Positions 1-21,571 of a stretch of 23,764 nucleotides of DNA are shown one piece after another. The notes under the pieces were generated by a model. The model searched no databases and was not told the DNA's origin. It worked only from the letters and a program-made list of their open reading frames with translations. Made by a program: the position numbers and the translations under genes. Origin of the DNA: a virus. The stretch lies in IMG/VR virus record IMGVR_UViG_3300024240_000012, positions 1 to 23,764 of that record; one strand, 5' to 3'. How positions within the stretch are numbered: the stretch's first letter is position 1; each line of letters begins with the position of its first letter.

Positions 1-3000
1 AACCAGTTCCTCCTCCCCGAACATGTTCACTTCACCGCTGGACACGGTTGCGGCCTTGATACGTCCCAGTTTGTCCTTCCAGTCGGTCGTATTGATCGAG
101 TCGGCATCCTTCTTCCGCATCTCAGCCAGGGCGATGGCTTGCTGCTTCTCGTTGAGTTTCGCCCGACCAACCTCGATAGCCAGGCGCTCATGGTCCTTGC
201 TCCTGCCGGCTTCCTCAAACATCTCATCCGACAGTTTGGCGAGGGCCAGACCGTCACGGATCATCGGCTTGTCCATTGGGAGCCCATCTGCCTCAAGGGA
301 CTCAAAGGTAGCCCCCGTATGTCTGATGTAGTGGGCCGCGTCCATGGCCGTTCCCGACCCCTCGGACATATTGATGTATGCCCCGATAGCCTTCGCTTCC
401 TCTGCCGTGTCAGCCTTGATGAACCTGACGTTGAGATCCTTCTCCCCCAACTTGATGGCGAGGGATCTGCGGTTGTGGCCATTGACCACATAGACTTCAC
501 CATCGGCAGGATCGAGCCACACATCCAGGAACTTCGCCAGTCGATCATTCCAATGCTTCGCCCCGGAAGTCGAACCGGACTCCCCACTCTTGGGATCGAT
601 CTGCGCGATACCGGTGTTGGAGTTGGTGACGCGAAACTGGAACCGCTTGGGCGCAGCACGGAGTTTAGCCACGGGGATGGTGAACACTTCCCCGTTCACC
701 CGCAGACCTTCGACATGCCGCAGTGCCTCGGGAACCTGATGGTCCACCGTGGGCTGGAGCGTTTCGTCGTGAACCTGCTTAGGTTCAGGCTTGGTGGGTT
801 CAGGCTTCGCTGGTTCAACCACGGGGGGCTTGGATTCTGCCGCTGGCTTCGGAGCGGGAGTCTCCGCTTCCTGGTCCATCTGGTTGGGGATGTCCTCAAC
901 CGACTTCGGAGTAGGTTCCTGTGCGGTAGGTTCAGCACTCTTGGGTTTCGGTGCTTCGGTCCTGTCGGACATGTGCCCCTGGTCGGGGATGTTGATGTCT
1001 CCACCCTGCTTCTTGCCCTTAGTAAGCGCCTTGATCTCGGCACGAACCTCCTGCCCACGGGCGCGAATCCACGCTTCCGTCCTGCCGGGGAACTGCTTCT
1101 TGAGCCAGTCCATGTACTTCGCATCCGACTTGCTGGGCTTGTCCTGGGAGACGATGAACAGTGCCTTGTCCACATCGCGCTCAAACACCGGGGAGTGCCC
1201 GACCACGCCGGCGTTAAACCGAGGCTTGGCCCCACGCAGATCCTTCGGGAGAGTCGGGGAAGGTGCTTCCGGTGGAGGCGGGACAGGGGCGACCGGCTTG
1301 GGCACAACCGGAGCAGGGGCCGGTTCAACGGGTGCTGGGACCGCCTGGGGAGACGGTTCCGTAACGGGTGCTACGCTTGGCAGCCCCGCAGGTTCAGGCT
1401 GTGCTTCCGTAACCGCCGAGGCAGCATCCGGGTTGGTAGTAACGGTTTGGAGTGCTGGCGTTTCCATGGGGTTGGCAATCGGCGCAGTGGGCTTTGGCCT
1501 CTGCCGTTCCAACTCGGCAAGACGCGCACGACCCGCTACCTCGGGGTTGTTGCGACGATTCTGTTCCGCCTGGGCCTCCACGAACTGCTTCATCAGTTCG
1601 TCCTGGGTGTCCTTGACCTCGGCCAGTTCCGCGTCAACCCGCGCCTCTGCCTTGCGCCTGGACTTCTTCTCCAGGCCCTTGGTCACACCGTTGGCTTCCA
1701 GAACCTTCCGTTCCTCGGCTTGATACTGCTGAACGACCGCTTCACGATTCGACTCAAGTTCGTTCGCCCGTTGGACAGCCTCCTCGAAAATGGGCTGGTT
1801 GATCTCGGTCTGCTGCTGGAGATCAGGATCAAGCTGCAGTTGCGTTGCTACTTCCGGTTCTTTCCTCGGCTGGGTTTGGGCTTCACCTTCTCGGGAAGGC
1901 GCTTGCCCTTCGATGCCTTGTCCCACTCCTTGACCACTTTCGGGGAGATTTCCCCCGACTTCGCCATCGCGTGGAACTTCCGCATTTGCGCCTTGCTCCG
2001 GTATGGCACCATCCACCCCCTTGGTTTTCTTTGCCTTCTTCTTTTCTTCGGCCAACTTCTTCGCGGCTTCGACTACAGCCATGGCATCGTTGATGTCCTT
2101 GCCGCCTTTGGTTTCCGTCTTGCCCTTGAAGGGGATGCCGGCCTTCTCGGCATACATGATCGCCGCCATCTTCCCCTTGAGACGGTCAACTTCTCCAGCG
2201 ATGGCAGGGGTATCCTTGTCCGAAGCCACCGCCAACCGCCTGGTCGCCTCAATCAACTTGGGTGCCAGCGCAGCCTTGGCGTCCCCAGGAGTCGCATACT
2301 CCTTGGTGAACTCTCTGCTCCGCATCATCAACCGTGCCGGGGCTATGCCGCCAGCCAGTTCATACCCAAGCATGGTCTTGATGGATTCCAGGACCGTGCT
2401 GCCCCACTCCTCCAAGGTCACATCCTTGCCAAGAACGTAGCGGTCAATGGCAGAGTCGGTCGTGCCGAAGATGACGCCCATCCCCACGCCAGCCGTAGCC
2501 TTCCTGGCGATGAGTTTCGTGAATGACGAGTAGAGCGCATCGGCTTGCTTCGCGTTGCCGCCGGCCATCTTCATGATCGTAGCTGCGGCAAGACCCGACA
2601 TGGTGCCAGCGGCAACGGCCTTCCCGAGTGAAGTGCCCTTGTCTATCTCTGACACAGCCTTGTCCACAGCGCCTTCCGCCGCGAATGCAGGGATAGCCAA
2701 TACTCCAAGACCACCGGCCTTGACCACACCGGCACCAATGTCCCCGCCGAATCCCGCAGTCTTACCGATGGTAGATTCGGGGTTGACCCCCAACTTCTCG
2801 CGCAGGAAATTGTCCTGGCCCTTCTGCCACGCAACATTCCGATCCTCAACGTCCTCGCCGGTAGCGATGTCCTGGTCCGCAGAGGTGAACGGACTCACCC
2901 TGTTCTGGATGAGCCCCGCCAGGACCGGATGGGTTTCCCCCAACTTGTTGATGAGGGTTCCGCGCAGACGCAGACCTCTACCAATGGTTGCGGCTGGTTT

Positions 3001-3342
3001 GTGAACCAACCCTTGGTAAAACCTCTCAGGGAGGGTAGCGATGTCACGCGGAGATCCGGTGATGCCCTTCCCCGTGGTCGCAGCACCCTCTGTTTCAGCG
3101 GTGAGGTCAGGAGTGCCAGGGTCATACGTTCCCCTGGGCAGGGGAGCGGAAGGGGCGGGAGTTGATCCAGCGAACCGGGGCATCGTCGTTGGGCTACCTG
3201 GTTCGACGGCAGACACCGTTGGTCTTGGGGCAGGGGCGGTTGGCTGCTGGCTGGGGACAGACGGCCCAGCAACCGCCCACGGATCTTCCACTTTGGATGG
3301 GGTTGATGGTCCTGCGACCTGCCAAGGGTTAGGTTCCGCCAT
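1..3342 (-). CDS. Giant ejected 'polyvalent'-type protein with ParB-like domain (partial, runs off left edge)
   Basis: From ATG at 3342 (after GAGGATGTA) the frame is open for 1,114 codons to the left edge with no stop. The N-terminus carries two PW[QA]VAGPS copies (6-13, 21-28). Residues ~190-350 are Gly/Ala-rich and hydrophobic (GFGGDIGAGVVKAGGLGVLA), suggestive of membrane contact. A charged segment (~360-440) and a coiled coil (~530-590) follow, then a Pro/Ala linker (~640-700). A compact module with VFERDVDKALFIVSQDKPSK lies at ~708-775, followed by a second linker. A ParB-like domain occupies ~885-1010: IPVAKLR (889-895), EVYVVNGHNRRSLAIKLGE with the GHNRRS signature at 955-960, and YINMSEGSGTAMDAA. 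ParB-fold domains with this 'INmsEG.Gt.mdaa' tail are a hallmark of polyvalent proteins injected with phage DNA. Downstream domains lie outside the window. Confidence 0.85.
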   Translation of the reverse strand, partial: MAEPNPWQVAGPSTPSKVEDPWAVAGPSVPSQQPTAPAPRPTVSAVEPGSPTTMPRFAGSTPAPSAPLPRGTYDPGTPDLTAETEGAATTGKGITGSPRDIATLPERFYQGLVHKPAATIGRGLRLRGTLINKLGETHPVLAGLIQNRVSPFTSADQDIATGEDVEDRNVAWQKGQDNFLREKLGVNPESTIGKTAGFGGDIGAGVVKAGGLGVLAIPAFAAEGAVDKAVSEIDKGTSLGKAVAAGTMSGLAAATIMKMAGGNAKQADALYSSFTKLIARKATAGVGMGVIFGTTDSAIDRYVLGKDVTLEEWGSTVLESIKTMLGYELAGGIAPARLMMRSREFTKEYATPGDAKAALAPKLIEATRRLAVASDKDTPAIAGEVDRLKGKMAAIMYAEKAGIPFKGKTETKGGKDINDAMAVVEAAKKLAEEKKKAKKTKGVDGAIPEQGANAEVPRDGEVGGNLPESGQGVGQGIEGQAPSREGEAQTQPRKEPEVATQLQLDPDLQQQTEINQPIFEEAVQRANELESNREAVVQQYQAEERKVLEANGVTKGLEKKSRRKAEARVDAELAEVKDTQDELMKQFVEAQAEQNRRNNPEVAGRARLAELERQRPKPTAPIANPMETPALQTVTTNPDAASAVTEAQPEPAGLPSVAPVTEPSPQAVPAPVEPAPAPVVPKPVAPVPPPPEAPSPTLPKDLRGAKPRFNAGVVGHSPVFERDVDKALFIVSQDKPSKSDAKYMDWLKKQFPGRTEAWIRARGQEVRAEIKALTKGKKQGGDINIPDQGHMSDRTEAPKPKSAEPTAQEPTPKSVEDIPNQMDQEAETPAPKPAAESKPPVVEPAKPEPTKPEPKQVHDETLQPTVDHQVPEALRHVEGLRVNGEVFTIPVAKLRAAPKRFQFRVTNSNTGIAQIDPKSGESGSTSGAKHWNDRLAKFLDVWLDPADGEVYVVNGHNRRSLAIKLGEKDLNVRFIKADTAEEAKAIGAYINMSEGSGTAMDAAHYIRHTGATFESLEADGLPMDKPMIRDGLALAKLSDEMFEEAGRSKDHERLAIEVGRAKLNEKQQAIALAEMRKKDADSINTTDWKDKLGRIKAATVSSGEVNMFGEEELV

Positions 3343-6269: not shown

Positions 6270-6670
6270 GCTTGCCTCGCCACGGCATCCCACTCGATTT
6301 CGTAGTAGCGCCACCACGCGATGCCGGCCAACTGGAGGCGCAGCCCATACCCAGCACACCCACGGGGGAGATGGAACACGGAAGCCTGGTTGGGATCTTC
6401 CGAAAGCGTCACGTATCCTCGCTTGACCTCCGTGTTGTCAACGAGCGCACGAACGTAGATTTTGCCGGAACCGCCAAAGCGAACCCGGTAGAAATACTTG
6501 AGCAGGGACGGATCTCCGCAGAACACGATGCCCGTGTCCACGAAGGACATCATCTGACGCCGGTCCTCGTTGAAGGTGCCGTAGACGGTCTGAGGCGTGC
6601 CCACGGCTGGCATACGCTCAAACGCTGCCCCTGCCGCTAGATACGCCTCATACGGGTCTACGAGTGCCAT
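6266..6670 (-). CDS. Virion-type protein, 134 aa
   Basis: Starts inside the last codons of the HExxH gene, with GAGGTCCAGGA in front. It is beta-rich, with YFYRVRFGGSGKIYVRALVD and a C-terminal LPRGCAGYGLRLQLAGIAWW followed by YYEIEWD. The 'lPRG..GYG..lql.G...w.yyEiew' ending resembles beta-sandwich tips of phage tail or propeller accessory proteins. I cannot give a named family. Its stop overlaps the next start (ATGA). Confidence 0.7.
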   Translation of the reverse strand: MALVDPYEAYLAAGAAFERMPAVGTPQTVYGTFNEDRRQMMSFVDTGIVFCGDPSLLKYFYRVRFGGSGKIYVRALVDNTEVKRGYVTLSEDPNQASVFHLPRGCAGYGLRLQLAGIAWWRYYEIEWDAVARQA

Positions 6671-7415: not shown

Positions 7416-7693
7416 CAGATCCTCCCGTGGGTTTCAGTGACCACGGAACCGCCCGTGGTGCTGTGTGCGTAGATGGCGGGGAAATACAGGTCGTTCCGCG
7501 CTTCCCCAGCCGAAACGGGAACCGAACTCGCTCCTGTGGACCCGAACTTAAAGAAGCAGTCAACTGGGCACGCTTCGATCAAGATGGCATCGATTTTGAG
7601 GATGGTCCCCACATCGATGAGAGTATCTGCGCCACCGGCAGGGACGGTCGTGGTCTTTCGCTCGATGGCATTGGCAGGGGAAACGCTAGACAT
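7415..7693 (-). CDS. Small beta-rich virion-type protein, 92 aa
   Basis: Start chosen at [11 protein letters not shown] because AAGGAGGTGTCC precedes it; this gives an 8-base overlap with the glycosyltransferase. A longer frame from 7726 lacks such a site. The protein has alternating strands ([50 protein letters not shown]), suggesting a single small beta-sandwich. The neighbouring collagen-like gene starts in its stop codon (TGATG). It may be a capsid or fibre accessory; no family is recognised. Confidence 0.7.
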
Positions 7694-8735
7694 GGACACC
7701 TCCTTGAAGTTGCTGGACGAACTCATTGGCCTTCATTGCTTCTTCCTTCATTCCCATCACACCATACGCCCTGGCCATCAGGTCATACGGACCTTCCCTC
7801 AGACCGACCGGATACCTGAACCCGATCCTTGGGCGCAGGAAGTGCCGCTCCCCATCGTTGATGCCATTGGCGACAGCCAGCCGAGCCCAGTAGATTGCCT
7901 TATCGGCCATCCCCATGCGAACCGAAACCTCGCCAGCGAACCAGCACAGTTCTGCGATGCCACTGTGCTTCGTCAGTCCCAGGGCACACGCAGCGATGGC
8001 TTCATGGCCCTTGCCCATGCGCTCAAGGCACACCGCAAGGCGGAAGCACGACCAGGCCGATTCCTCGTCCCAACCGTTCAGATCAGCACAGCGCTTGAAT
8101 GCCTCTGCCGCTTCGGCCCAATGCTCAAGCGCAGCGTGGGAGTCCCCAAGGTAATACCAGGACCGTGGATGAGTGGGGTTGTCTGCGACATCCTTGCTCA
8201 GAGAATCAACCAGCCACTCCAACTTGTGCTTCAACTCCTCGGGAGACTTCTCCAGTTCCGAGAACGAGATCCCCTGGACGAGAACCTGCTTGCCGTTCTT
8301 GGGCAGGACGCACTCATGCACTCCCCCGACAAAAACATCGGCCAGCGGGAGCTTGAAGAACCGCTCTTTGCTATACATGCCGGAATCATGGGGGACCAGG
8401 ACTACACCATCCAGATCCGACAGCATACCCTTGATGTCAATGCCATCGAAGTTCATGCGCTCATCGGTGTCCAGGGTGATGGCCCAGTCCGCGCCAAGAC
8501 GTTCCGCTTCCGCCAGCCCGAAGTTCCTCGCTCCTGTTGCGCCAACTTCATGGGAGCAGTCGTAGGGGACAACATGCAGCCGGTCGCCCACGATGCTCCG
8601 TGCGACCTCCAGCGTGTCATCCGTAACTCCAAGGTCCACGATGATGCACCGATCAGTCCATCCACACACACTCCGAAGGGCATCGCCGATGACCTTGGAG
8701 CGGTTGGAGGAGAGCGTGATGGAAGCCAGAATCAT
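7686..8735 (-). CDS. Family-2 glycosyltransferase fused to TPR repeats, 349 aa
   Basis: The N-terminal ~150 residues form a GT-A domain: ASITLSSNRSKVIGDALRSV, CIIVDLGVTDDTLEVA, EVGATGARNFGLAEA and the DxD-type ITLDTDER (Asp89/Asp91) for metal and sugar-nucleotide binding. From ~190 on there are TPR-like helical pairs (WYYLGDSHAALEHWAEAAEA, RLAVCLERMGKGHEAIAACA, WFAGEVSVRMGMADKAIYWA). The start follows AAGAGGTCAC. GT2-TPR proteins transfer sugars to proteins, glycans or DNA; substrate is not evident here. Among virion genes it may glycosylate a particle protein or alter host surface sugars. It overlaps the next gene by 8 bases. Confidence 0.85.
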   Translation of the reverse strand: MILASITLSSNRSKVIGDALRSVCGWTDRCIIVDLGVTDDTLEVARSIVGDRLHVVPYDCSHEVGATGARNFGLAEAERLGADWAITLDTDERMNFDGIDIKGMLSDLDGVVLVPHDSGMYSKERFFKLPLADVFVGGVHECVLPKNGKQVLVQGISFSELEKSPEELKHKLEWLVDSLSKDVADNPTHPRSWYYLGDSHAALEHWAEAAEAFKRCADLNGWDEESAWSCFRLAVCLERMGKGHEAIAACALGLTKHSGIAELCWFAGEVSVRMGMADKAIYWARLAVANGINDGERHFLRPRIGFRYPVGLREGPYDLMARAYGVMGMKEEAMKANEFVQQLQGGVHV

Positions 8736-14146: not shown

Positions 14147-16048
14147 CTAGGGGACATCAGGGGAGAAGAAGGTGATCCCGTCTAGACTCAGGTTCGTGAT
14201 GCTTGCCGTGGCATCGGCAACAGCTACCACACCGTCATACCCGGAAGCGGAGTCCAGAATGCGAACCCCAATGGGGAGTGTGGCTGCACCAGTCGCAGCC
14301 GTGACGTAGGCAGCGATGAATCGCAGCGTGCCGCCCATGTAGGTATCGTCGGAACCGCCCGTGAGCGGACGCGCCCCCACGGGGAGGATGGTGATGTTGT
14401 CCCCCTGGGAAGCCGAACCACCAGTCCTGGCAACGCACCCCTGGAGGTGGACGATGCCGGAACGGTCCTTGAGGTAGGTCAACTTGGTCGTGCCATCGGA
14501 ATACCGGAACCAATTGGCACTGGCATAGGTGAGGGCCTTCATGACGCCCTTCGTCCCCTGCCCGTTGTCCACAACGTCCGTGAACAGCGTGTTGTAGTGG
14601 TCGTATTCGTTCCCGAAGATTTCGCAGTTCTTGGAGTTGGAGTCGATGTTGATGCCTGTGCAAGCCGCGCTGATGTAGATCCGGTTGTCCTCAACCTTGA
14701 TCGACTTGCCGTTGGTGATGGTCAGTGCCACCGAACCGGAACCCGATACGGCAGAGGCATACAGGTAGTTGTCCCTGATGCTCGTCCCCGTGCAGTTGTT
14801 GAGCAGGATGGCCCCGCACTGGCTGGTTGGGTCCATCGGTTCGATCTTGTTGCCCTCGACCACCGACTTGCCCTGGATGTCGTAGTCCAGGTTCTCCAGA
14901 ATCACCAGATGCCCACCCGTCAGGTCCACCAACTGTTCCATGTTGTTGTTCTTGATATGGACGTTCCGGCCCTTGGTGATCTTGATCGCACCACCCTGAC
15001 TGGTGATGTTGTTGTTCTTGATGAGGAACATGCTCGACGCACCGGACGGAGCGGTGTAAGGCAGCATGGTCCCCTCGATCCCGATGACACCGGGACCGCC
15101 CCCGAACTGGTTGTCCTTCACGGAAACCGAGTCCCCGAGGTTCTGGAACTTGAACCCGCTGATCTGGCTCCGCTCGATGACCGAGCAGAACAGACCGTTG
15201 TTGTTGAGCGAGGTTGGGTCATTCACCACATTGATCCCACGCCCTGTCCCACCGGATGAGGCACGCAGGAAGCACTGATCGACGGTGAGTCCACGGAGTC
15301 CGTTGTTCGTGGTCAGGTGGACACGGATCACATCCCGTCCCATCGCCCCTCCATAGGCCATCTCGTAGCACCACATCCCCTCAAACCACACGCCTTCGAC
15401 CGAGTAGATGGTTGCGTTCCCGCTCCCGTCCAGGATGGTCGGGGGTTCGATGAGGAAGATGTCGTTCGACGTTGAAACGCCCGTGTCGTAGACGAAGTAG
15501 GCACCCTTGTCGCAGAACATCTTGAAGTCTTTGGTGATCGTGACCACGGCACCGGAAACCACACTGTTGAGTCGGTAGACGCCGGCAGGGACGTAGAGGG
15601 TCTTGCCGGTCCCCTGGAGCGCAGCAACCGCAGCACGCAGCGCAGGGGCATCATCGGTGACGCCATTGCCGACCGCTCCGAAACGCATGAGACTGGTCCG
15701 TTCCTGGTTGATCGCATACTGCTTGAGCGGAACCTGCCCCGTCAGCGGACCACGGTCGTAGATGAAGTTGGAACCAGACAGCGTTCCCGCCCCAGTAGCA
15801 CCGATCTGTGAGGCCAGGATGTAGTTCGCAGCAGCCGTGCCTCCGAGTGCCAGGGAGTTGTTCACTGTCCCCCCAGGTGCAGTGCCCTCGTAGGGAAGGT
15901 CCACCCACTCCGAAAGACCGTCCCCGATCTTGTGGGTGTTCGTGTCCGACTCGTAGCCTATCTCGCCAACCGCCAGGACAGGGTTGGAAGCGTTCCACTC
16001 AGCAGCGGTAGCGTGACGAACCTGGAGTCTGACAATCTGGCTGGTCAT
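14147..16048 (-). CDS. Tailspike / receptor-binding protein, Mtd-like N-domain plus beta-helix, 633 aa
   Basis: The start ATG at 16048 follows GGAGGAGCG and overlaps the upstream stop (TAATG). Residues ~7-55 (RLQVRHATAAEWNASNPVLA, then GEIGYESDTNTHKIGDG) match the N-terminal domain of major tropism determinants and many tail fibres, which anchors them to the virion. From ~120 the sequence reads MRFGAVGNGVTDDAPALRAA and LYVPAGVYRL, the start of a pectate-lyase-3-type right-handed beta-helix. Asn-rich NosD-like turns such as IKNNNITSQGGAI and VEGNKIEPMD continue to ~500. A beta-rich C-terminal domain follows. Such trimeric spikes bind and often cleave surface polysaccharide; I cannot point to catalytic residues. 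No reverse transcriptase or variable repeat is present, so no diversity-generating system is visible. Confidence 0.87.
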   Translation of the reverse strand: MTSQIVRLQVRHATAAEWNASNPVLAVGEIGYESDTNTHKIGDGLSEWVDLPYEGTAPGGTVNNSLALGGTAAANYILASQIGATGAGTLSGSNFIYDRGPLTGQVPLKQYAINQERTSLMRFGAVGNGVTDDAPALRAAVAALQGTGKTLYVPAGVYRLNSVVSGAVVTITKDFKMFCDKGAYFVYDTGVSTSNDIFLIEPPTILDGSGNATIYSVEGVWFEGMWCYEMAYGGAMGRDVIRVHLTTNNGLRGLTVDQCFLRASSGGTGRGINVVNDPTSLNNNGLFCSVIERSQISGFKFQNLGDSVSVKDNQFGGGPGVIGIEGTMLPYTAPSGASSMFLIKNNNITSQGGAIKITKGRNVHIKNNNMEQLVDLTGGHLVILENLDYDIQGKSVVEGNKIEPMDPTSQCGAILLNNCTGTSIRDNYLYASAVSGSGSVALTITNGKSIKVEDNRIYISAACTGINIDSNSKNCEIFGNEYDHYNTLFTDVVDNGQGTKGVMKALTYASANWFRYSDGTTKLTYLKDRSGIVHLQGCVARTGGSASQGDNITILPVGARPLTGGSDDTYMGGTLRFIAAYVTAATGAATLPIGVRILDSASGYDGVVAVADATASITNLSLDGITFFSPDVP

Positions 16049-16440
16049 TACGCTCCTCCGCAATCAAGACTCGTTACATAGTTGGGTAGTGCTGGCCCAC
16101 CATCGACCATATGCGAGTATGAACTATCTGCAACGCCACCGTCGATATTCGCGTCCACCGTATCCCCGTATAGCGGTTCACCGGAGAACGGAGTCTCAAC
16201 CCTGATGCCCTTGATGACATCGCTGGGGATGACCACGACACTCACTGTCTCGCCAGTCACCTCAGTCCGCACCGTCACAGGGATGATCGCTTCGTGGTAG
16301 GTGATTCCCGTCAACGATGCGACCTGTTCCTGTGCCCACTGGATTGCCTGAGCATACTGGTCAGATTCGTAGGTGCCGGAACCCTCTGAGGTTTCCCCCA
16401 GCAGGACCATCGTGGCTTCTACGATCTCTGCGTAGTTCAT
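16048..16440 (-). CDS. Second adaptor-like N-half protein, 130 aa
   Basis: Starts MNYAEIVEATMVLL at an ATG overlapping the upstream stop (ATGA); a longer in-frame extension upstream has no good start signal. It shares the IQWAQEQVASLTGITYHEA / VVIPSDVIKGIRV pattern with the 74-aa gene at 16817-17041, so the two look like diverged paralogues separated by the C-half gene. The remaining C-terminus (SGEPLYGDTVDANIDGG onward) is Gly/Ser/Asp-rich and lacks the helical second half. Its TAA overlaps the tailspike ATG (TAATG). It may form part of the neck or the tailspike attachment site. Confidence 0.7.
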   Translation of the reverse strand: MNYAEIVEATMVLLGETSEGSGTYESDQYAQAIQWAQEQVASLTGITYHEAIIPVTVRTEVTGETVSVVVIPSDVIKGIRVETPFSGEPLYGDTVDANIDGGVADSSYSHMVDGGPALPNYVTSLDCGGA

Positions 16441-16814
16441 CGCTTCACATCCACGGAGGCAAGAGGGATGGGGCCAACCCCGATCCCGACAGCGAACTTG
16501 TTGAAGTATTCCGAAGCCCTCTGCATGTCCTGCCCCTGGCCGGCCTGGGTCAGCAGCCAAGCCGCAGCAGCGAACTTGAGATACTGGTGGAAGAACGAGG
16601 GGATGCGGTTGTCGGGCTGGTCCGCGTCATTTACCATGACCGTTGGACGCTGGATGTAGCCCAGCAGGACCGTGTTCGACACCGGCTGACCGTTGAGCAT
16701 GATGATGTAGCCGGAAGCCTGAATCCATACCGTAGGTTCCCCGGTTCTGGCCTTCCACGATGGGCTTTTCAGATCTTCAATCGCTATGGTGCTTTCGAGC
16801 AGAACCTTGGCCAT
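16437..16814 (-). CDS. Adaptor-like protein, C-terminal-half type, 125 aa
   Basis: Starts 2 bases after the upstream stop, with GAGGTAG providing both the Shine-Dalgarno and that stop. A beta-rich first half (TVWIQASGYIIMLNGQPVS, then VLLGYIQRPTVMV) is followed by helices (FFHQYLKFAAAAWLLTQAGQ and MQRASEYFNKFAVGIG). The 'Yi.rP' strand, then 'yhqyL..aAa..LL...gq....ra..Y...F', is how the second half of phage neck adaptors reads. Together with the preceding 74-aa protein it would make one complete adaptor; the frames differ and the ribosome-binding site is good, so these are probably genuinely separate genes. Stop and next start overlap as ATGA. Confidence 0.7.
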   Translation of the reverse strand: MAKVLLESTIAIEDLKSPSWKARTGEPTVWIQASGYIIMLNGQPVSNTVLLGYIQRPTVMVNDADQPDNRIPSFFHQYLKFAAAAWLLTQAGQGQDMQRASEYFNKFAVGIGVGPIPLASVDVKR

Positions 16815-16816
16815 GG

Positions 16817-17041
16817 CTACCTCACAATCACTTCAACGACCTTGATGGCGTCCTCGGGGATGATGACTTGCTTGTTGTTCACCGTCCCCAGCGCGTCCGT
16901 CCTGGTCAAGCCCATGAGAACCGCAATCTGCTCACAGCCCCAGTTGATCCCATCGTCGGTCCACTCGTCCTTATAGAGACGGCTGTAGGCACCTGGCCCA
17001 ACCAGTTCCTTGACTTCCTCGCGCAGAGTCTCAAGATTCAC
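16817..17041 (-). CDS. Adaptor-like protein, N-terminal-half type, 74 aa
   Basis: The chosen start is a GTG overlapping the ligase stop (GTGA); an in-frame TTG at 17053 would add four residues. The protein has a helix, then INWGCEQIAVLMGLTRTDA, then VIIPEDAIKVVEVIV. This matches the N-terminal half of phage neck adaptors, in which a helix 'in.a..eiA..tg' is followed by a beta strand ending 'lP.d...l..V'. It lacks the C-terminal half, which appears in the next gene. It also aligns by pattern with the gene at 16048-16440 (IxWxxEQxAxLxGxT and VxIPxDxIK). I infer a portal-bound neck component made as separate chains. Confidence 0.7.
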   Translation of the reverse strand: MNLETLREEVKELVGPGAYSRLYKDEWTDDGINWGCEQIAVLMGLTRTDALGTVNNKQVIIPEDAIKVVEVIVR

Positions 17042-19293
17042 AGCCACCCCCAACTACGCAGCAGATCGCCGTCCTTGTGCCACTTGTAACCGATGTCGGT
17101 CCGGTAAGACATGTCAGGCAGGGTAATGGTCTTGACGCGCTTGTAGGCTTCCTCCTTCGCCTCCTCCATCGTCATGCCCTTGCCCACGCAGATCACCGCG
17201 TAGCCAGAGTTGCCGGCCAACTTCCACTCGTCGTTCTCGCACTTCACATCGGCAAGGTAGATCCCGCCGATGTTGGGGTCGGAGAACTCGATGCTCTTGT
17301 CGGCGGAATACTTGGCAAACGCCTTGGGGTCTTCGTAGGGGAACGGGGGGACACTGACCACCACACACAACTGGAACCCGGATTCCGTGTCCAGGTTGAA
17401 CTTCTTGCCCTTCGCCATGGCGTCGAAGAAATCACCCAGTTTGGAGTTGATACCGTCCATCTGGAGCCAGATCGTCGGCACACCGAAACGAGGGGTAGCC
17501 TCCAAGGGGTAGACGGCATCCTCGGTGGCGATGCAGTTCAGGTCCATGTAGCCGTGGTAGTCGGCAGCACGCAGGGCCGGCACCATCTTCGCCAGCGTCT
17601 CGTCGTAGAGGCGTGGTTCGCCATGGTTCGTCCAGAATCCCAACGTGCCTTGCTCACCGCTGTTGCCTTGCCAGGAAGCCTTACCGTTGCGCCTCACGTA
17701 CATGATGTGGGATGGGACCGTGGCGCAATACACCCTCCCGTGGTATGGGACCGACTTGCAGAACTGGGGGCAAAGCAAAGCCTTGACGCGGGATCGGCAT
17801 TCGGTGATGTTGATCTCTTTGTAGTTACCATTGACCAGCGCATCACCGATGTAATGGGACTCGTCCATTCGGTCCCTGACCTTTACTGCCGCATACCCAC
17901 CAGACTTCAAGACCAATTCTTGTAAGTCATCAGCCAGTTTGGTAGATACCGTGGTGTAGACCATCGGGGTGCTGCGCGTCCCATCTCCAGACCCATACCC
18001 GTAGAGGAACGCCTTGATCGTCTGCCTTGAACCATCCTTGATGTATTGGGGGACGCACTTCTGGTGTGCCCTCCCGAACATCGAGAAGTGAACAGCCAGT
18101 TCCCTTGAGTTGATATAAAGGTCTTTTCCATACATGCTTGCCTTGAAACCAGCCCTGTTGGCTATGTCTATGAACACATCCTGTTTGTGCTTCGGGCAAT
18201 TCCCGAACACGATAGATCGGCTTTTCGCGTAACCATCAGCGATGTATATACCTACTAAGGATGCCCATGCCGACATCGACCCACGGTAGAACGATGGGAG
18301 TTGGCTGCAATCATCAACTCCGCTCCACTCCCCACCGCCGCGCATGATGTTCCTGTTCCCCGAGACGATGCTGCTTGCTCGTTCAAACGAGAATGGCTTT
18401 CGGGAGTGGTCATCCTGGACATACATGTTGTGGTTTGGAGTCACCAGCAGATCAACCGTTGGACTTGACCATGCGACCATGCTCCCGTCAAAGTCATAGT
18501 CCATTAGCGCAAGTGGTTGGGCATAGGCGATCTCGCCGTCCTGGAGAGTGCAAATCTCATCGTCAGGAGTGACATCAGGCCAGAACTTCCACCCCCCGTA
18601 GGTAAGAACTTCCGTGTCTGCGGAGTAACAATTTGGACCAACATCTCCGTTCATCATCTTCTTGTATTCAAAGTTCACGAAAGCCGGGAGGATGAACTCC
18701 TTGCCATTGAAGAATGCCCCGATGGCCACTTCCACACCTTTTGCGAACTGCTGGAGTTGCACTGACTTGATCTTCGCAGCCCACTTCTTCTTGTAGTTCT
18801 CCAGGGTGGATATGACATCCGAACCGTCCTCGGCCTTGCCAACGTAGGTAAGGCACTTCTCGTCCTGCGCCACACCGTCAGGCTTGACCACATACCGTCC
18901 AGGGTTCTTCTGCACGAACTTGATCGCCTCGTCCAGACTCTTGAACGTCCAGTCGGGCAGAACCGTCATGCCGGCCTTCTTGAACTCCTGCTGCCCGAAG
19001 CCACGATCCATTTCCATCTTGTCCGAGTAGCAGCATGGACCAACGACCGCCTTGCCCTGCTCTCGGAGATCCTCACACATCTCGCCGAAACAAGCATCGT
19101 CCACGATGATGAGATCGGCCCAGTCAACCCACGGTTCATAGGACGAAACCTTCCCGATCAGACCGTTGCTGATGTCACGGGAAGGCTTGTCCTTGATGTA
19201 GTACTTGACCTGGTTCCCTTCCGACAGGAGACGCTTGCACAACTCACCACACACTCCGAAGTGAGAAAAGACAAGGATCTTCCTGGTCGCCAT
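17038..19293 (-). CDS. PurD/GARS-like ATP-grasp ligase with in-frame intein, 751 aa precursor (428 aa spliced)
   Basis: The outer parts (residues 1-221 and 545-751) form a 428-aa protein, the usual size of phosphoribosylamine-glycine ligase. The N-domain is Rossmann-like (ILVFSHFGVCGEL). The ATP-grasp domain shows the GRYVVKPDGVAQ lysine loop (~132-143), the GPN|SG loop and the metal-binding VYPLEATPRFGVP segment (~594-606). The family joins an amine to a carboxylate through an acyl-phosphate. The N-terminal nucleotide/PRA-binding loop differs from the classical GGREH of PurD, so the substrate may not be phosphoribosylamine. An intein splits the GPNTGG-type motif at residues 222-544. The gene lies amid neck genes, far from any visible purine gene, which suggests either host-metabolism support or modification of a virion component. 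Its stop overlaps the next GTG start (GTGA). Confidence 0.85.
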   Translation of the reverse strand: MATRKILVFSHFGVCGELCKRLLSEGNQVKYYIKDKPSRDISNGLIGKVSSYEPWVDWADLIIVDDACFGEMCEDLREQGKAVVGPCCYSDKMEMDRGFGQQEFKKAGMTVLPDWTFKSLDEAIKFVQKNPGRYVVKPDGVAQDEKCLTYVGKAEDGSDVISTLENYKKKWAAKIKSVQLQQFAKGVEVAIGAFFNGKEFILPAFVNFEYKKMMNGDVGPNCYSADTEVLTYGGWKFWPDVTPDDEICTLQDGEIAYAQPLALMDYDFDGSMVAWSSPTVDLLVTPNHNMYVQDDHSRKPFSFERASSIVSGNRNIMRGGGEWSGVDDCSQLPSFYRGSMSAWASLVGIYIADGYAKSRSIVFGNCPKHKQDVFIDIANRAGFKASMYGKDLYINSRELAVHFSMFGRAHQKCVPQYIKDGSRQTIKAFLYGYGSGDGTRSTPMVYTTVSTKLADDLQELVLKSGGYAAVKVRDRMDESHYIGDALVNGNYKEINITECRSRVKALLCPQFCKSVPYHGRVYCATVPSHIMYVRRNGKASWQGNSGEQGTLGFWTNHGEPRLYDETLAKMVPALRAADYHGYMDLNCIATEDAVYPLEATPRFGVPTIWLQMDGINSKLGDFFDAMAKGKKFNLDTESGFQLCVVVSVPPFPYEDPKAFAKYSADKSIEFSDPNIGGIYLADVKCENDEWKLAGNSGYAVICVGKGMTMEEAKEEAYKRVKTITLPDMSYRTDIGYKWHKDGDLLRSWGWL
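17662..18630 (-). mobile_element. Intein with LAGLIDADG homing endonuclease (323 aa)
   Basis: Starts at Cys222 of the ligase precursor (CYSADTEVLTYGG, splicing block A) and ends at Asn544 before Ser545 (WQGN|S). Block B is VDLLVTPNHNMYV (~280-292, with the T-x-x-H pattern). Block F is GRVYCATVPSHIMYVRRNGK (519-538). Two LAGLIDADG-type motifs are present: ASLVGIYIADG with Asp353 and AFLYGYGSGDG with Asp437, so the endonuclease looks intact. The penultimate residue is Gly instead of the common His, a variant known among phage inteins. By hand count GC is about 50% at 18061-18300 against about 60% in flanking ligase sequence at 17341-17580, which supports separate acquisition. Excision would restore DVGPN-SGEQG, matching the GPNTGG motif of the GARS family. 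Confidence 0.93.
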
Positions 19294-19298
19294 GGCTT

Positions 19299-19442
19299 CT
19301 ACTTTCCCTTCTTGCTGAACTTCTTGGGGTGCATCGCCTTCTTCTCCTGCATATCCTCGGTGACAGGCTTCGCCTTCTTCACATCCGGCATCTTGCCCTT
19401 GCCTTCGGGAGCAGCGCCTTCATACAGGAACTTGTTCTTCAT
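19299..19442 (-). CDS. Lys-rich 47-aa protein
   Basis: A short frame between the 224-aa gene and the ATP-grasp gene, in what would otherwise be a 158-base gap. Its ATG is preceded by TAGGAGAAAGCC, a clear Shine-Dalgarno that shares bases with the upstream stop, and its TAG lies 5 bases before the next start. The product begins MKNKFLYEGAAPEGKGK and ends KKFSKKGK, with about a third lysine and no hydrophobic segment. Such small basic proteins occur in phage virions or as DNA-binding factors, but no function can be assigned. Spacing and ribosome-binding site make a real gene likely. Confidence 0.7.
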   Translation of the reverse strand: MKNKFLYEGAAPEGKGKMPDVKKAKPVTEDMQEKKAMHPKKFSKKGK

Positions 19443-19451
19443 GGCTTTCTC

Positions 19452-20599: not shown

Positions 20600-21571
20600 T
20601 TAGTCGATCTTGATGGGCAGGGCACCCATCAGGCGGCTGTCGGAGAGCCCGTAGCCGAAAACGTCAAGCTGGCGGCAAGCGCGGCCAAACTTGGTCTGCA
20701 TCTTGAAGTTCACGTCCGTCTCCTGGAGCTGACGGATGAAGCCCAGCCCGTTCTGGTGCCCGATGACGCACTGCGCGATGTTCGCCTGGCCACCGTAGAG
20801 CGTGGCGGTCGGGATCTCGTCGGTCACGATGATGTCGAATCCGGCCACCTTGATGCCGAACTCGCCATTCTCGATCTCCTTGGCGTTCTGGTTGCCCGAG
20901 ATCTGGTAGGTGAACTGGTCGCTGTTGAGGAGGATCTCCTCGACATCGGAGTTGACCATGACGTAGCGACCCTTCTTGGGGATCGCCATCTGGTTGTACC
21001 GCTTCCGCGCCTTGATGAACGCCTTGATGATGTAGTTCGCGTCCGTGCGGTCAGTGGAGGCGGGAGCCGTGGGGACGGCGGGGTTGTAGGCAACCGTGCC
21101 GGGGGTCTGGCCGTGATACGCCATCTGCGAAGCGCCGTAGACCGTGGTGATGAGGCCACCGACCACAACCGCGTACTCGTTCTCGGCGTGGGCATCAGCC
21201 AGCATACGGGCGATCTTCTGCATCAGGGGCAGGTTGATCTGCTTGATGTCGATGGGGTCCAGCGTGGGGTAGCCGTAGAAGGCGTTGTCCACCGTGACCG
21301 TGAAGTTCGTGCCGCTGACAGTTTCAGGAACGAGATCCTGGTTGACCACATAGGCGCTGATCGCGGGAGGATTCAGGACGCGGAAGGTGATGGTGTCGCC
21401 GAAGTTCTCCAACTTCTTCATCGCCTCGGTGTTGCTGATGCGACCGAGCATGGACTCGCGCCGGAGGATGTCGAAGGTCAGACCTTCAACGACGTTCTCG
21501 ATGAGGGCGGTCTTGCCGGCATCGGTGAGGCCGGTATCGGGGGAGGGTCGGGGGGTGCGGGTGATGGCCAT
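20600..21571 (-). CDS. Major capsid protein, HK97-fold (P22 coat / N4 gp56-like), 323 aa
   Basis: Builds the icosahedral shell. The order scaffold-capsid, the 323-aa length and the sequence layout fit: a helical N-terminus with MLGRISNTEAMKK, then a beta-rich GDTITFRVLNPP segment, a spine-helix-like LPLMQKIARMLADAHAENEY region, an A-domain-like GRYVMVNSDVEEILLNSDQF stretch and a C-terminal FGIKVAGFDIIVTDEIP strand region. This is the arrangement of P22-coat-like and N4-gp56-like major capsid proteins. The start ATG follows AAAGGTAACATC. Codons end mostly in G or C, consistent with high expression. The gene is followed by a strong RNA hairpin (20555-20585). I am confident of the major capsid role and less so of the exact subfamily. 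Confidence 0.87.
   Translation of the reverse strand: MAITRTPRPSPDTGLTDAGKTALIENVVEGLTFDILRRESMLGRISNTEAMKKLENFGDTITFRVLNPPAISAYVVNQDLVPETVSGTNFTVTVDNAFYGYPTLDPIDIKQINLPLMQKIARMLADAHAENEYAVVVGGLITTVYGASQMAYHGQTPGTVAYNPAVPTAPASTDRTDANYIIKAFIKARKRYNQMAIPKKGRYVMVNSDVEEILLNSDQFTYQISGNQNAKEIENGEFGIKVAGFDIIVTDEIPTATLYGGQANIAQCVIGHQNGLGFIRQLQETDVNFKMQTKFGRACRQLDVFGYGLSDSRLMGALPIKID

Follow-up and report, generated by a model that had tools for sequence, protein, structure and literature searches.

Inteins of class 1, such as TliVMA, PhoVMA and PI-SceI, have a two-domain layout with recognizable splicing blocks, and their penultimate residue is usually, although not obligatorily, His. Replacement of this His with Gly slows or alters C-terminal cleavage in some inteins. 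The RDF intein of mycobacteriophage Bethlehem natively carries a penultimate Gly and splices well, and changing this Gly to His slows splicing (PMC5050341). Class 3 inteins are defined by the lack of a nucleophile in position 1 together with Trp B:12, Cys F:4 and Thr G:5 (PMC5050341), Cys being the second most common F:4 residue among inteins generally (PMC4031507). Described phage inteins related in sequence to the element analyzed here reside in the thymidylate synthase ThyX of Corynebacterium phage P1201 and in the nucleotidyltransferases of mycobacteriophages (Bixzunavirus, cluster C1).

The element described here was found in a 23.8-kb virus record, the whole of which is hereinafter referred to as the window. 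In the preferred reading, to which we assign a probability of about 95%, it is a mobile intein of class 1 that carries a LAGLIDADG homing endonuclease, is inserted in the active-site loop (GPN/SGEQGT; slashes mark splice junctions) of a phage GARS-like ATP-grasp enzyme, and would splice, cut DNA and home. Mobile elements of this kind are well documented; as for the host gene, searches of a limited open-access literature collection returned no earlier report of PurD, GARS or ATP-grasp proteins that carry an intein.

The split host gene and its reconstruction

The host gene (17038..19293, minus strand, as are all parts of it listed below) encodes a 751-aa precursor that is identified by its open reading frame, its translation and the Pfam domains GARS_A and GARS_C as a GARS-like ATP-grasp protein split by an intein. 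The N-extein (residues 1-221; 18631..19293), which is colinear with intein-free homologues (L014-L018), ends with GDVGPN; the 323-aa intein (residues 222-544; 17662..18630) starts with CYSADTEVLT and ends with WQGN; and the C-extein (residues 545-751; 17041..17661) begins with SGEQGT, so that the residue following the insert is Ser. The original prediction, made from the window alone, was correct in the identification of residues 222-544 as an intein, in the reading frame and coordinates, and in the key residues: Cys222, TPNH, Asp353 and Asp437, block F and GN/S are all present.

Excision of residues 222-544 yields a colinear 428-aa ATP-grasp protein with the junction GPN-SGEQGTLG, in agreement with the GPN-SGEQG of the original prediction. 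In the complete reading frame, the GARS_A match (35.9 bits) ends at residue 221, whereas in the joined exteins it spans residues 104-283 and rises to 47.5 bits, the improvement anticipated for a genuine intein; GARS_C changes from 37.5 to 38.6 bits and the purD model from 94 to 110 bits. Residues 72-414 of the joined exteins are colinear with solved GAR synthetases through the GPN(S/T)G motif (phmmer, best E-value 8e-21). The intein also has a lower GC content than its host, as originally proposed, but the difference had been overstated (about 50% against about 60%): the actual values are 53.4% for the intein and 56.7% for the joined exteins, with 54.0% for the N-extein alone. Most of this gap in the window comes from third codon positions (65.6% vs 78.5%), and it is wider in two relatives (50.3 vs 57.1% in L005 and 46.5 vs 55.7% in L007).

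Splicing blocks and intein class

A scan with an intein profile yielded 379 viral stretches; the 79 loci that were kept represent 61 distinct inteins. Block A (CYSADTEVLTYGGW...; 18571..18630) opens with the nucleophile Cys1, which aligns in all 61 distinct inteins from the 79 kept loci, as does a Ser, Thr or Cys at position +1. Block B (18415..18459) contains the TPNH motif with Thr B:7 (intein T64) and His B:10 (intein H67); among 46 family members, H67 is invariant and T64 is at least 90% conserved. Block F (RVYCATVPSHIMYVRR; 17689..17736), delineated by alignment and conservation, includes Cys F:4 and the block F His (intein H308), and block G, with the C-terminal splice junction KASWQGN/S (17659..17682), provides the penultimate Gly, Asn323 and Ser+1.

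Cys222 as intein Cys1, Thr B:7 and His B:10, the N323/S junction and a predicted HINT fold together define a class 1 intein. A class 3 intein is ruled out: only Cys F:4 agrees with the definition of that class, whereas Cys1 is present, B:12 is Met and G:5 is Gln, and it is because the WCT signature lacks its Trp and Thr here and Cys1 is in place that we assign the element to class 1. The penultimate His is absent and replaced by Gly. This Gly, singled out in the original prediction as notable, is real but requires no special explanation; since 58 of the 61 members of this phage intein family have it, it is the rule of the family.

Three inteins of this family (L098:2501-3472, L101:2501-3457 and L153:2501-3529), two of which occupy the same ATP-grasp site, end in Gln rather than Asn (WNGQ/T, WSGQ/T). 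At L008:2173-3246, on another virus contig, a related intein start (CYTDDTEFLT) is found in an apparent nucleotidyltransferase, and the frame stops early inside the intein.

Endonuclease, predicted fold and selection

The first LAGLIDADG motif (LVGIYIADG; 18232..18261) carries the acidic residue D132 of the intein (precursor D353), and Asp or Glu occupies this position in six of six aligned inteins. The second motif (FLYGYGSGDG; 17980..18009) carries D216 (precursor D437), which is at least 90% conserved in 46 family members and lies within a Pfam LAGLIDADG_3 match (intein residues 205-254) that narrowly exceeds the gathering threshold (22.8 vs 22.5 bits). Both motifs thus supply the catalytic acid characteristic of a LAGLIDADG homing endonuclease, and these acids are kept in homologues. 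The AlphaFold2 model of the intein, built from 46 aligned inteins, has a pLDDT of 95.8 and a pTM of 0.93 and predicts a splicing and an endonuclease fold. In a Foldseek search with this model, the best PDB match is the TliVMA intein, with PhoVMA, PI-PkoII and PI-SceI also among the nearest entries, whereas a sequence search of the PDB with the intein returned nothing significant (best E-value 0.15; the spike-protein rows are chance matches). TliVMA, PhoVMA and PI-SceI thus resemble the element in predicted fold, two-domain layout and splicing blocks but differ in the penultimate residue, which is the typical His of class 1 as opposed to Gly, and the identity to them is only 11-17%.

The comparison of the window with L005 gives a dN/dS of approximately 0.1 for the intein, with dS near saturation, and 0.17 for the exteins; as judged from these substitution rates, the intein is under purifying selection. 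Its sequence features confirm that the insert is a complete and apparently intact intein of class 1, equipped with a LAGLIDADG endonuclease that has both motifs; it probably splices. The missing penultimate His could be taken to indicate that the element is a decayed or bacterial intein-like (BIL/hedgehog-type) one, still capable of cleavage but no longer of splicing or homing. We regard this as very unlikely, considering that all other splicing residues are canonical and the +1 nucleophile is present, that the penultimate Gly is typical of the family, that the acids of the endonuclease are conserved, that no internal stops were detected across the 79 related loci and that the intein is under purifying selection.

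Related inteins in unrelated phage proteins

In tblastn searches with the precursor, the segment 219/221-545 matches unrelated phage host proteins, and the matches end at the proposed splice junctions. The homologues include inteins in ThyX (L011), in a nucleotidyltransferase (L012) and in a Lak phage protein (L010). The match to the P1201 thymidylate synthase, the record of which is annotated with a hypothetical intein, has an E-value of 8e-27, far above chance. The P1201 intein shares approximately 30% identity with that of the window across its whole length, along with the same blocks, Cys1, block F (VYCATVPNHTLYVRRNGK), the penultimate Gly, Asn and Ser+1, but it resides in another host protein and at another site, and the exteins have no similarity. 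The Bixzunavirus nucleotidyltransferase inteins are approximately 25% identical across the whole intein and likewise have LAGLIDADG motifs and the penultimate Gly, but differ in the host protein and in having Thr at position +1.

Occupied and empty alleles

Intein-free alleles in related phages, which the original prediction proposed to look for, do exist. Continuous, uninterrupted genes are present in IMG/VR relatives L002/L003 (contigs L014/L015; GPST/GEMGT, 73% identity), L016 (GPN/TGEMGT, 70% identity) and L017 (GPN/CGEAGT, 68% identity). Conversely, in L005 and L007 the identical codon is occupied by an orthologous intein of 323 aa, which is 70-71% identical to that of the window. Among the matches listed, extein similarity led to 80 viral loci, from which 78 contigs with a readable host gene were obtained; the insert is present in 4 of these 78, the window included, a count that comes from pattern-based scans with an upper limit of 80 loci and does not represent the frequency of site occupancy across the family. 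In L023-L025, an extein match is absent among the called open reading frames.

These observations bear on the possibility that the insert is a normal domain of this enzyme family that is retained in the mature protein. Several orthologues (L005, L007, L098, L099 and L101) do carry the insert at the same place, but the close homologues L014-L018 and almost every other relative are continuous through the site and show no gap there, the same module occurs in unrelated proteins, and the insert splits a loop that is invariant in 102 homologues. The normal-domain alternative, which had been raised at the outset, is contradicted by the intein-free alleles, and we consider its probability negligible; the preferred reading of the insert as a mobile intein is retained below.

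The host enzyme is a GARS-like paralogue distinct from PurD

With the intein removed, the extein scores 110.2 bits against the TIGR00877 purD equivalog model, for which the cut-off is 288. The model of intein-free L016 (pLDDT 90) shows the GAR synthetase/ATP-grasp fold, and its top 15 PDB matches are all GAR synthetases (E-value 1e-25 or better, best 7e-30); residues 210-213 have pLDDT below 50, and the insertion site sits at this low-confidence loop. Compared with PurD, which the protein resembles in the predicted fold and in the GARS_A and GARS_C domains, the TGG motif is changed to TGE and the ExN metal motif to ExT in all 70 cellular and 32 viral homologues, and across these 102 proteins the insertion-site loop is invariant. 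Furthermore, 11 of the 19 tested MAG-type genomes encode, besides the paralogue, a true PurD that scores above the cut-off. A PurD function of the extein is ruled out by the low equivalog score, this coexistence and the motif changes, which is why we consider it a separate paralogue; the original description of the host as PurD-like was right as to the predicted GARS fold but not as to the family.

The cellular homologues (44-52% identity) come from Micrarchaeota, Woesearchaeota, Aenigmatarchaeota, Thaumarchaeota, Planctomycetota and other MAGs, and no conserved neighbors were found around them. The paralogue family with the TGExGT and ExTxR motifs is represented in hundreds of viral contigs and also in MAGs (loci L173-L252, L014-L093). 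As for the reaction, amine-to-carboxylate ligation late in infection is only a guess from the fold and the place of the gene.

Genomic neighborhood

In the window, the ATP-grasp gene has the major head protein gene (20600-21571) on one side, and an adaptor-like gene (16437-16814; its Pfam match falls short of the cut-off), the tail-fibre gene (14147-16063) and internal virion protein genes on the other. In many lake-virus contigs, as judged by sequence, its neighbors are a lysozyme-like gene on one side and long genes that look structural on the other; the structural-operon setting was correctly recognized for the window and applies to many relatives. The idea that a Lys-rich 47-aa open reading frame (19309-19449, minus strand) encodes a peptide on which the ATP-grasp enzyme acts was rejected because this frame is missing in relatives. 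At 10 viral loci, including L040:1175-1621, a GNAT-like acetyltransferase, so named by sequence, is encoded upstream of the ATP-grasp gene in the structural operon, and an annotated N-acetyltransferase is also found nearby in Manatee Spring phage MW202796. Elsewhere in the window, the structural region contains a family 2 glycosyltransferase with a TPR repeat (7686-8735, minus strand; phrog_13126), and positions 1-3342 (minus strand) hold a 1114-aa open frame with a portal protein profile match in the C-terminal part only (883-1069).

Apparent movement of the intein between lineages

Among the loci recovered by the profile scan are PurD-like host genes from a distant clade (L098, L099 and L101), in which an intein of this family occupies exactly the site used in the window. 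In L102 (1975-3003), a third lineage, an intein lies in the same ATP-grasp loop but five residues downstream (GEMG/T), and it is sister to the inteins of the first site. In the trees, the inteins cluster (87/87; with L102, 94/97), and the exteins form two clades with long, fully supported branches between them and intein-free members in both. Between the clades, the inteins are less diverged than the exteins (41-46% vs 29-32% identity), whereas within the clade of the window they are not (70-73% vs 71-77%). The simplest reading of these comparisons is that the intein moved between lineages after the divergence of the enzymes, although saturation at conserved positions may explain part of the difference.

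Intein-free L017 groups with the window (89/83; the branch is not starred). Around position 6660, it has Cys (TGC) at +1, a codon that differs by a single base from AGC, which encodes Ser in the intein-bearing alleles, but by more than one from the codons used for Thr in the empty alleles. We speculate that L017 might be a former intein site with a possible footprint of loss.

Proposed life cycle and implications

In the scheme that follows from the preferred reading, Cys1 would undergo the N-S acyl shift, Ser+1 would take over the N-extein, and Asn323 would cyclize; with Gly in the penultimate position, this step would be assisted by the block F His or by other residues. Ligation of the exteins would then give the 428-aa enzyme with the loop intact, whereas the unspliced precursor, in which the intein interrupts the most conserved loop, is expected to be inactive. 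In a co-infection, alleles without the intein would be cleaved at the GPN/TGE site by the intein, either excised or still part of the precursor, and the intein would thereby copy itself by homing.

The element could, in addition to being selfish, function as a timing switch that delays the activation of the ATP-grasp enzyme in late gene expression, given that the precursor would stay inactive as long as its active-site loop is interrupted and that the penultimate residue alters the splicing rate in the mycobacteriophage RDF intein (PMC5050341); close relatives live without the intein, and we find this role unlikely. A broader proposal, under which the intein is an activation switch for a new virion- or host-modifying late ATP-grasp ligase and the TGE loop a hot spot into which one intein family has inserted repeatedly, at two adjacent sites, is tentative and carries a low likelihood.

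Specialists would regard the finding as sound and useful more than as unexpected. Alleles with and without the intein, a pair of neighboring insertion sites and apparent moves between distant lineages make up a set suitable for the study of intein movement. The host genes represent a common, uncharacterized ATP-grasp family of uncultivated viruses and of archaeal and bacterial MAGs, members of which annotation would mislabel as PurD.
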